Below are positions 27,481 through 29,616 of a stretch of 64,000 nt of DNA, one piece after another (the first letter of the stretch is position 1; each line of letters starts with the position of its first letter). This stretch comes from Vicinamibacterales bacterium. GTDB taxonomy: Bacteria; Acidobacteriota; Vicinamibacteria; Vicinamibacterales; Fen-181. The notes below the pieces were generated by a model. It saw only the letters and a program-made list of their open reading frames with translations, had not been told where the DNA came from and did not search any database. The stretch spans positions 1 through 64,000 of the forward strand of contig DASXVO010000085.1 in the NCBI GenBank assembly GCA_036504215.1, given 5' to 3'. Position numbers and translations under genes: made by a program.

Positions 27481-27522
27481 CACCCCCTCATTCATCCACG
27501 GTTGTAGACGAACGAGGGGGTG
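27481..27522 (-). other. Strong RNA hairpin upstream of the VIT1 gene
   Basis: Read on the minus strand, CACCCCCTCGTTCGT (27522-27508) pairs with ATGAATGAGGGGGTG (27495-27481): 13 Watson-Crick pairs plus two G-U wobbles and a 12-nt loop. On the plus strand the wobble positions would be A-C mismatches, so the fold belongs to the minus transcript. It lies between the ldcA stop and the VIT1 start. No U-run follows, so a terminator or a 5'-leader control element are both possible. Confidence 0.6.
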
Positions 27523-27539: not shown

Positions 27540-28481
27540 TCAGGCCACGCCGGGCTGCAGCAGTTCAAGGGTTCTCGCCCGGGCGTTCAACCTGACCTCG
27601 ATCCCATAGGGCAACGTCAACTGGTCGGGCACATGGCCCACCGCAAGGTTGGCCAGGATCGGGATCTTCAACGGCAGCAGACGGTCCGCAATGACCTCGT
27701 GCAGCGTGAAGCTGTGCCTGGCCGGGCAATTCCTCGGTTCGGTGTCGGTGAAGATACCCAGGGCCAAGCCGGCTGCATCCGACAGCTTTCCCGAAGCCAT
27801 CAGCTGGGTCAGCATGCGGTCGACCTTGTAGGGTTCCTCACCCACATCTTCGATGAACACGACACGACCGCACGTCTCCACCTCGTAGTCGGTCCCCAGG
27901 CTGGCCGTCAGGAGGCTCAGGGTGCCTCCGGTCAACGGCCCGTGCGCGATCCCTGGCCGCAGGGTCTTTGGCGGGCGTCCCTTGGAGAAAGGGACACGTC
28001 CCACAGGCTCCGGGGACATCAGCGCTCGCTCGAGTGAACGCAGCGAGAACGAGGTCCACGCGCTGTCCGTGCAGGGCATGGGCCCCCAGAACGAGACCAG
28101 GCCGGCCTTCTGCAGGGCCAGGTGCAGGACGGTGATGTCCGAGAACCCGATGACGGCCTTGGGGTGACGCCTGGCGAGACGGAGATCGAATCCCGGCAGG
28201 AGGCGGGAAACGCCGTACCCGCCCCGCGAGCAGAAGATCGCCTTGATGTCGGGATCCCGAAACGCGGCCTCGAGGTCCTGCCGCCGCTCCTGGTCCGACC
28301 CGGCGAGGTACCCGTGTTCAGCAAGGGCATGGCTGCCGGGCACGACTGACAGTCCGAGCTGTTCCAGGCGTGTCTTCCCGCGCAGAAAGAGACTTCGGCT
28401 TTTCGGCGGCGACGCGGGCGAAATCAGTGCCACCTTGTCTTTGCGCACCAACCGAGGGGGAGAGATCAGCGGAGTCGTCAT
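27540..28481 (-). CDS. ldcA: LD-carboxypeptidase (muramoyl-tetrapeptide carboxypeptidase, family S66)
   Basis: 313 residues from the ATG at 28481, two bases after the stop of the spmB-like gene; the longer frame to 28772 lies inside that gene and is rejected. Family S66 triad regions are all visible: Ser in IFCSRGGYGVSRLL, Glu in VVFIEDVGEEPYKVDRML, His in LAVGHVPDQLTLPYG. The enzyme removes the terminal D-Ala from L,D-linked tetrapeptides during cell-wall recycling and is normally cytoplasmic; no signal peptide is seen. Tight coupling to spmA/spmB-like genes links it to peptidoglycan metabolism, though an S66 enzyme acting on other peptides (MccF-like) is an alternative. Confidence 0.92.
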   Translation of the reverse strand: MTTPLISPPRLVRKDKVALISPASPPKSRSLFLRGKTRLEQLGLSVVPGSHALAEHGYLAGSDQERRQDLEAAFRDPDIKAIFCSRGGYGVSRLLPGFDLRLARRHPKAVIGFSDITVLHLALQKAGLVSFWGPMPCTDSAWTSFSLRSLERALMSPEPVGRVPFSKGRPPKTLRPGIAHGPLTGGTLSLLTASLGTDYEVETCGRVVFIEDVGEEPYKVDRMLTQLMASGKLSDAAGLALGIFTDTEPRNCPARHSFTLHEVIADRLLPLKIPILANLAVGHVPDQLTLPYGIEVRLNARARTLELLQPGVA

Positions 28482-28483
28482 GG

Positions 28484-29020
28484 TTAGAAAAGGAGTCTGC
28501 AAATGATGTACGCGGCGATGATGCCCGCCAGGTCCGTGATCAGGCTCGCGGCCAGGGTGTAGCGCGTGCGGCGGACGGCAATGGAACCGAAGTAGACGGC
28601 CATGACGTAGAAGGTCGTCTCGGTGCTTCCCTGAATCACGCTGACCAGTCGGCCGACGAACGAATCGGGACCATAGAGTTTGAAGATGTCGGAGCTGAGA
28701 GCGAAGGCAGCCGAGCCCGACAGGGGCCGCATCAGCGATGAAGGCAGGGCTTCCACCGGGAAGCCGACCCACGCAACGACGGGCTGGAGAATCGCCACCA
28801 TCCAGTCCATGGCGCCGCTTGCCCGGAACATGCCGATGGCCACCAGGATGGCGACCAGGTACGGCATGATGCGGACGCCGATCTGAAAGCCCTCCTTGGC
28901 GCCCTCGATGAAACTCTCATAGACGCGGATGCGTTTCGCCGCGTAGGCGTACGTCGGGATGCCGAGGATCAGCAGAGGCACAACCCAGCTGGAGGCGGCA
29001 TTCAGCAGGTCCTTGGTCAT
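28484..29020 (-). CDS. spmB: Spore maturation protein B-like, nucleoside-recognition (Gate) membrane protein
   Basis: 178 residues from the ATG at 29020, which overlaps the spmA-like stop by four bases (ATGA). Membrane helices are separated by the Gate-domain loop AKEGFQIGVRIMPYLVAILVAIGMFRASGAMDW. The family motif LPSSLMRPLSGSAAFAL and the stretch STETTFYVMAVYFGSIAVRRTRY are typical of SpmB. In Bacillus SpmA/SpmB affect spore-core dehydration. Here the organism shows no other sporulation gene, so a vegetative transport role is more likely. The product ends two bases before the ldcA start. Confidence 0.93.
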   Translation of the reverse strand: MTKDLLNAASSWVVPLLILGIPTYAYAAKRIRVYESFIEGAKEGFQIGVRIMPYLVAILVAIGMFRASGAMDWMVAILQPVVAWVGFPVEALPSSLMRPLSGSAAFALSSDIFKLYGPDSFVGRLVSVIQGSTETTFYVMAVYFGSIAVRRTRYTLAASLITDLAGIIAAYIICRLLF

Positions 29021-29616
29021 GCGGGATCTCCCTGGAGTTTCCTTCCCTGCCAGCGGGCGAACACCCTCGACACCACCACGGCCACGGCCATCGACGCCAG
29101 GGTGGACAGGATGGTGGCGACGATGATCTCGGATGGGTTCTTGGAACCTGCGGCCGCGCGCAGGCTGATGATCATCACCGGAATGAGCTGCAGCGAACTC
29201 GAATGCAAGGCCACGAACATGCACATGGCGTTCGATGCGCTCTCTTTATCCGGGTTCAGGTTCTGCAGCTCCTGCATGGCCTTCAGGCCCATGGGAGTGG
29301 CCGCGTCGCCCAGCCCGAGAATATTCGCGCCGAAGTTCATGGCGATCGCGCCAAGTGCCGGGTGATCTTTGGGTACCTCTGGAAACAGGAATCGAAACAC
29401 CGGGCGCAGGGCCCTGGCCAGGACCTGGACCAGGCCACTGTCCTGGGCCACCCGCATCAGGCCCAGGAACAGTGTCATGCCGCCCACCAGCCCGATGGCC
29501 AACTCCACGGCGGTCCCGGCGGACTTGAAGGCCGCATTGGACACCTCCGGCATGGTCCCTTTGAAGACCGCCGTGATCACCGCCGTGGCAATCAGCAACA
29601 ACCAGACAATGTTCAT
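29017..29616 (-). CDS. spmA: Spore maturation protein A-like, nucleoside-recognition (Gate) membrane protein
   Basis: A 199-residue protein. The first helix (NIVWLLLIATAVITAVF) is followed by the Gate domain AVELAIGLVGGMTLFLGLMRVAQDSG. The conserved FPEVPKDHPALGAIAMNFGANILGLGDAATPMGLKAM is the clearest SpmA signature. HSSSLQLIPVMIISLRAAAGS and a last helix complete it. It is the first gene of a three-gene minus-strand operon with overlapping junctions (spmA-spmB 4 nt; spmB-ldcA 2-nt gap). The pair probably forms a two-component membrane transporter whose substrate is unknown. Confidence 0.94.
   Translation of the reverse strand: MNIVWLLLIATAVITAVFKGTMPEVSNAAFKSAGTAVELAIGLVGGMTLFLGLMRVAQDSGLVQVLARALRPVFRFLFPEVPKDHPALGAIAMNFGANILGLGDAATPMGLKAMQELQNLNPDKESASNAMCMFVALHSSSLQLIPVMIISLRAAAGSKNPSEIIVATILSTLASMAVAVVVSRVFARWQGRKLQGDPA

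Follow-up and report, generated by a model that had tools for sequence, protein, structure and literature searches.

A spmA-spmB-ldcA gene cluster in a Vicinamibacterales genome lacking two sporulation markers: a candidate transporter and peptidase operon

A 64,000-nt stretch of DNA from a Vicinamibacterales bacterium (hereafter the window) carries a tight spmA-spmB-ldcA cluster, in which two genes for Gate-domain membrane proteins are followed by a gene for an S66-family peptidase. S66 genes recur beside spmAB in several phyla and in three arrangements, and genes for other D-alanine enzymes also adjoin spmAB. Our preferred interpretation, which we put forward tentatively, is that the cluster is a vegetative operon for a transporter and a peptidase, in which the cargo of SpmAB would come from the trimming of stem peptides, D-alanine being the likeliest candidate.

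Organization of the cluster and its surroundings

The features of the cluster are as follows:

29017..29616, minus strand: spmA, SpmA-type Gate-domain membrane protein, 199 aa (Pfam Gate PF07670, 58.3 bits)
28484..29020, minus strand: spmB, SpmB-type Gate-domain membrane protein, 178 aa (Pfam Gate PF07670, 50.8 bits)
27540..28481, minus strand: ldcA, S66-family (LD-carboxypeptidase) serine peptidase, 313 aa (PF02016, 125.1 bits; PF17676, 114.4 bits)
29017..29020, minus strand: spmA stop overlapping the spmB start by 4 nt (ATGA), from the junction sequence
28482..28483, minus strand: gap between the spmB stop and ldcA start, 2 nt, from the junction sequence

The ORFs and Pfam matches place the three genes on the minus strand exactly where an earlier reading, made from the sequence without database searches (the sequence-only reading), had put them. 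Its description of an 'overlapping operon' stands for spmA and spmB and fails for spmB and ldcA, as the junction sequence runs from the TAA stop of spmB through 2 nt to the ldcA ATG; the 410-aa ORF listed for ldcA is an in-frame extension into spmB DNA. The three genes are presumably co-transcribed. The promoter scan returned no promoter-like sites and the terminator scan returned one terminator-like site, both at or below the level of shuffles, and Rfam and tRNA scans of the window gave no matches.

Downstream of ldcA lies a VIT1-family gene on the same strand, while a YjbR-family gene is positioned divergently upstream of spmA. A hairpin of 19 pairs with a 4-nt loop (27481-27522, minus strand) sits between ldcA and the VIT1 gene and overlaps the listed VIT1 start (27495); it may represent a terminator, a VIT1 regulator or a sign that VIT1 starts later. 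The G+C content of the cluster (63.9%) is slightly under that of the window (66.5%), a difference that we do not take as evidence of transfer.

Sporulation markers in the genome

The organism had been called apparently non-sporulating, and this holds for the two markers that made up our test: Spo0A_C and SpoIVA_ATPase each returned 0 matches in the 5.92-Mb genome of the window, which is rated as 100% complete, and both matched in the B. subtilis control. Spore genes elsewhere in the genome, which the sequence-only reading had named as a finding that would speak against it, did not appear in the form of Spo0A or SpoIVA. A sporulation role is the source of the Spm name and does not define the sequence, and it finds no footing in a genome without these two markers; SpmA and SpmB are therefore assigned by sequence only, not as spore genes.

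SpmA and SpmB as the probable halves of one transporter

Both proteins contain the Gate domain PF07670 (Pfam cut-off 29.6 bits) that marks the SpmA/SpmB family. The window SpmA aligns with 19 relatives at 41-56% identity and SpmB with 22 relatives at 44-60% identity, and the conservation is full length and extends to Clostridia (SpmA 53% and SpmB 50% against a Romboutsia locus, L111). Against NCBIfam PRK10519, SpmB scores 43.7 bits, under the cut-off of 111. In 69 of 123 loci, SpmA and SpmB form one reading frame, which argues that the two work together, and we infer that they form one complex.

The structure was modelled on a fused SpmAB from the window's order (L055, 443 aa, 57-row alignment) rather than on the window's own pair, and the predicted model reached a pLDDT of 91.9 and a pTM of 0.89. 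In VIA-align, twelve concentrative-nucleoside-transporter (CNT) entries rank first, the best being 3tij (Z 14.4, 276 residues, 4.3 A, 19% identity, model residues 39-441), a score to be read with the aligner's note that the best Z is typically 14 for helical models without a clear Foldseek match. They are followed by ArsB (Z 13.2), the AbgT-type YdaH (Z 11.3), and INDY and TRAP entries. Foldseek with the same model returned nothing at E <= 0.001 (best 1.9e-3, an AbgT-type transporter), and a sequence search of solved structures with the SpmAB profile returned 0 matches. Support for a CNT relationship extends beyond the Z score, since SpmA and SpmB match the Gate family, in which a passage of PMC5629000 includes the CNTs. 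As the best fold matches of the fused relative are CNTs, SpmA and SpmB probably constitute one two-part elevator-type transporter with a fold related to that of CNTs, SpmA providing the N-terminal half and SpmB the C-terminal half.

SpoVV is likewise described as a CNT-like protein of the Gate family in that passage (PMC5629000). SpmAB shares the Gate family with CNTs and SpoVV/YlbJ, and the model of the fused relative has the CNT match given above; however, the window's SpmAB is split in two chains, and its neighbours indicate neither a nucleoside nor dipicolinate.

LdcA and the other S66 genes of the genome

LdcA contains both S66 domains at the scores listed above, and its best solved relative is 6uuk ('Muramoyltetrapeptide carboxypeptidase', E 3.5e-37). 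Ser114, Glu211 and His283, which we take to be the catalytic Ser-Glu-His of S66, are conserved: of 51 rows, 49 carry all three, one has a gap and one an Asp. No membrane segment was found by hydropathy. Against the NCBIfam equivalog PRK11253 (E. coli-like muramoyltetrapeptide carboxypeptidase), LdcA scores 145.5 bits where the cut-off is 378; hence, we call it an S66 family member and not a PRK11253 equivalog. Over its full length, LdcA is matched best by a tetrapeptide carboxypeptidase, and the MccF matches are partial, which is suggestive only of activity on stem tetrapeptides rather than of an MccF-type activity. Compared with the S66-family LdcA of peptidoglycan recycling, the window LdcA shares both domains and the Ser-Glu-His residues but falls below the equivalog cut-off and is tied to spmAB, which E. 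coli ldcA is not.

The genome holds three S66 genes. The second, the other cytoplasmic-looking one, forms a tandem pair with mpl in which about 10 nt separate the two reading frames (G000:C35:320058-322470; L083 6758-9425). An N-terminal extension resembling a signal sequence is present in the third paralogue (L082 6998-8020) and in several unlinked S66 proteins of the phylum. With three S66 genes, one of them in tandem with mpl, we rejected the possibility that the spm-linked LdcA is the only recycling LdcA of the genome. AmpG is also present (410.8 bits, cut-off 350), so SpmAB is not needed for muropeptide import, and a role in place of AmpG is disfavoured. Since AmpG and the Mpl-tandem S66 already supply the usual recycling route, the spm-linked LdcA would appear to be separate and dedicated. 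Among the ten linked genomes searched, the linked S66 is the sole S66 in eight and the other two have two each; of the unlinked genomes in the same search, G307 has none and G308 has two.

Recurrence of the S66-spmAB link

Three sets of loci were surveyed. In the phylum sample, SpmB was matched in 42 of 297 genomes, giving 42 loci (L077 and L080 are one genome); a weak match, L081, was dropped as it has no SpmB. The 80 named loci are the best 80 of at least 577 relatives in a collection of 84,980 species' genomes. The 90 clostridial loci comprise the 30 best and 60 picked lower in the list, SpmB being present in 214 of 249 genomes (L178 is from the genome of L111 and repeats its locus). S66 counts were taken from tblastn and neighbouring genes from a greedy longest-ORF script, which missed the S66 gene in L039 and L047.

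An S66 gene adjoins spmAB in 11 of the 42 phylum loci (the window's own and, divergent from spmAB, those of 10 out of 13 genomes in a family designated f36) and in 10 of the 80 named loci (best 80 of at least 577). These 21 adjacent S66 genes among 122 loci (42 from the phylum plus the best 80 of at least 577) compare with 0.15-0.27 expected, and one further S66 gene lies far from spmAB in the same loci. Considering the named loci (best 80 of at least 577) together with the window, S66 is on the same strand as spmAB; it lies downstream in the window, Goldiibacteriota, Romboutsia, Tissierella and a Thermoanaerobacterales MAG, and upstream in three Marinimicrobia, L089, L092 and a Kangiella MAG. 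The Goldiibacteriota trio is 72% (SpmA), 68% (SpmB) and 58% (LdcA) identical to that of the window. At the best 80 of at least 577 loci, the 121 adjacent genes (within 400 nt, 100-1200 aa, longest-ORF script) fall into 139 Pfam families, of which S66 is the commonest (10), followed by the 2-hydroxyacid dehydrogenases (5); the alanine dehydrogenase C-terminal domain occurs three times. In the majority of loci, no S66 gene adjoins spmAB: 31 of the 42 phylum loci, 70 of the 80 named ones (best 80 of at least 577) and 87 of the 90 clostridial ones.

The neighbourhood is thus not unique to this genome, the outcome that would have counted against the sequence-only reading. That reading had framed the survey as one outside Firmicutes; the S66 link was found there and also in Clostridia (Romboutsia, Tissierella and the Thermoanaerobacterales MAG).

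Conservation and transfer of the trio

A sample of 60 genomes, made up of the window's own and those of relatives, yielded SpmA in 15. Within the family, it occurs in two of seven genomes searched, those of the window and of a member of another genus (G561, locus L310), and is absent from all four same-genus genomes searched and from a further family member. The G561 trio has the same order (spmA, spmB and ldcA at 82, 86 and 69% identity), with the same 4-nt spmA/spmB overlap and 8 nt before ldcA. Between the two genomes, dN/dS values of 0.114/1.039 for SpmA, 0.087/0.711 for SpmB and 0.231/0.989 for LdcA (ratios about 0.11-0.23) show that all three genes are under purifying selection. None of the VIT1, YjbR, ABC permease and GH31 genes that flank the window cluster was found in the 12 kb around the G561 trio, so the conserved unit is the trio and not the region.

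A tree of 51 S66 proteins sorts the 23 linked ones into four groups (window plus Goldiibacteriota, Clostridia, Marinimicrobia plus Kangiella, and f36); four changes of linkage state are needed, at least two of them forced by well-supported branches. The SpmAB tree (113 thinned rows) needs six changes, at least three of them forced, and groups an Acidobacteria MAG (L126) with a genome of the window's order (G206) with support of 99, which points to Acidobacteriota as the window's phylum. G561 is absent from both trees. The Goldiibacteriota MAG is the partner of the window in both trees, for SpmAB and for LdcA (support 100), and the fused SpmAB proteins of the window's order fall elsewhere; this placement would fit transfer as a block in either direction.

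This pairing, with the patchy occurrence of the trio in the family (two of seven genomes), could be taken to mean that the cluster came together by chance and was spread by horizontal transfer, with no functional link between its genes. We consider this very improbable and reject it on the adjacency numbers (21 against 0.15-0.27 expected in 122 loci, the named ones being the best 80 of at least 577) and the three arrangements: transfer of one block cannot yield upstream, downstream and divergent placements with distant S66 lineages. The purifying selection on all three genes also stands against it.

Other neighbours of spmAB and the probable cargo

S66 is not the only wall or alanine enzyme gene found beside spmAB. 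In 5 of 80 loci (best 80 of at least 577; Pfam for L120 and L089), S66-spmA-spmB comes after a gene of the S13 DD-carboxypeptidase type. In 27 of the 90 clostridial loci and in two Paenibacillus loci, spmAB lies immediately behind an S11 DD-carboxypeptidase gene, which is the familiar dacB-spmAB layout. Alanine racemase adjoins spmAB in phylum member L073, in Romboutsia L111 and in L235 (behind a FemAB gene), a rare placement (1/42 phylum loci, 1/80 named loci from the best 80 of at least 577, and 2/90 clostridial loci, one genome being counted twice). Up to 5 of 80 loci (best 80 of at least 577; Pfam for L140) have an alanine dehydrogenase gene close to spmAB, an amino-acid permease gene is beside spmB in two loci of that set (best 80 of at least 577), and an Amidase_3 gene is upstream of spmAB in L093.

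Further neighbours were noted in passing. Five Ignavibacteria/Bacteroidetes loci (L099 8557-9864, L115, L121, L137 and L138) encode related proteins directly downstream of spmAB, the L099 member having 435 aa and no Pfam match. Several f36 genomes (L040 7738-10248 and related loci) have a gene for a membrane H+-pyrophosphatase after spmAB, and a glutamine-amidotransferase/C26-type gene is upstream of S13-S66-spmA-spmB in three loci (L089 592-1251; L092 4379-5035, by Pfam; L134 4398-5051).

The reactions of S66, S11, S13, racemase and dehydrogenase enzymes have alanine as their common metabolite. As alanine (D-alanine for the carboxypeptidases) is what the LD- and DD-carboxypeptidases, alanine racemase and alanine dehydrogenase share, D-alanine or alanine would be the likeliest cargo of SpmAB, with stem peptides next. 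In the mechanism that we propose, LdcA would act as a cytoplasmic S66 peptidase that cleaves the terminal D-alanine off peptidoglycan stem tetrapeptides, and SpmAB would transport a product of this trimming, working with LdcA in the cytoplasm. Because DD-carboxypeptidases work on the outer side of the membrane and LdcA on the inner side, these neighbours do not point D-alanine in one direction. Also weighing against the mechanism are the rarity of adjacent alanine racemase, the lack of SpmA in all four same-genus genomes searched and the LdcA score under the PRK11253 cut-off.

Alternatively, SpmAB might import free stem tri- or tetrapeptides for LdcA to trim on arrival, by analogy with AbgT, which with AbgAB takes in and splits p-aminobenzoyl-glutamate. 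The case for this rests on peptidase analogies, as that for D-alanine does on the shared metabolite. One such analogy is E. coli yjiH-yjiG-iadA, in which two genes for Gate-domain proteins overlap by 4 nt and iadA follows 12 nt downstream on the same strand; like the window cluster, it has two overlapping Gate genes and then a same-strand peptidase gene, although iadA encodes an isoaspartyl dipeptidase (amidohydrolase) and not an S66 peptidase. YjiG resembles SpmB (hhalign 96.2%), whereas YjiH as a true SpmA is unsupported (hhalign 1.3%), with no recognizable SpmA likeness beyond the Gate domain, which weakens the analogy. A gene with a diaminopimelate-dehydrogenase domain after S66 in L118, an M14 carboxypeptidase gene before S66 in L132 and the presence of AbgT-type YdaH (Z 11.3) among the fold matches of L055 would also suit a peptide cargo. 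On the other hand, neighbouring alanine racemase and dehydrogenase genes require no such cargo, AmpG is present in the window's genome, and known CNT-type transporters carry solutes smaller than stem peptides. Taken together, we regard stem-peptide import as unlikely.

No more probable, in our estimate, is that LdcA and SpmAB belong to the same wider process, such as envelope turnover or stress, without sharing a metabolite, the SpmAB solute being unrelated and the genes merely co-regulated. The variety of neighbours at most SpmAB loci (139 families in 121 genes at the best 80 of at least 577 loci) agrees with this, as does the cargo of another Gate-family protein, SpoVV, which according to a passage of PMC5629000 carries dipicolinate. 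Co-regulation alone accounts poorly for the recurrence of S66 in three arrangements and several phyla, with other D-alanine enzymes beside SpmAB.

Overall, the proposal of the sequence-only reading that SpmAB is linked to peptidoglycan-peptide turnover gains support from the recurrent adjacent S66, and its presence in an organism without the two spore markers tested is likewise supported. Its further suggestion that SpmA and SpmB carry a cell-wall compound is favoured by the predicted transporter fold and the alanine and D-alanine enzymes beside spmAB, and weakened by the many loci that lack an S66 gene.

Relation to spore formers and significance

The link between dacB and spmAB is already known: in B. 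subtilis, spmA and spmB are downstream of dacB, as stated in a passage of PMC13188902. The dacB-spmA-spmB cluster, which acts in spore core dehydration, resembles that of the window in placing spmAB beside a peptidoglycan carboxypeptidase gene (dacB directly upstream); it differs in that the window's peptidase is of the S66 family and encoded downstream, in a genome without Spo0A and SpoIVA. The open-access literature that we searched contained no report of a spmAB-ldcA link. In two further papers, the mechanism (PMC5376575) and the activity (PMC3533761) of SpmA/SpmB are described as not understood.

A broader and more doubtful extension of the D-alanine reading is that SpmAB, known so far only for its part in spore core dehydration, is a D-alanine or stem-peptide transporter serving whichever carboxypeptidase or alanine enzyme its host employs. 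In vegetative cells, it might handle D-alanine from wall turnover; in spore formers, it might clear the D-alanine released by DacB-type trimming and so link cortex trimming to core dehydration. Counting against a wall-derived cargo, the B. subtilis spm mutants are described as having raised core water, not a wall defect (PMC13188902).

The recurrent pairing of spmAB with alanine-releasing or alanine-converting enzymes, also in the absence of Spo0A and SpoIVA, makes a substrate hypothesis testable outside sporulation. If it is true, it would account for a gene pair that spore-forming bacilli and clostridia are listed as sharing, and peptidoglycan-peptide recycling would gain a transporter.
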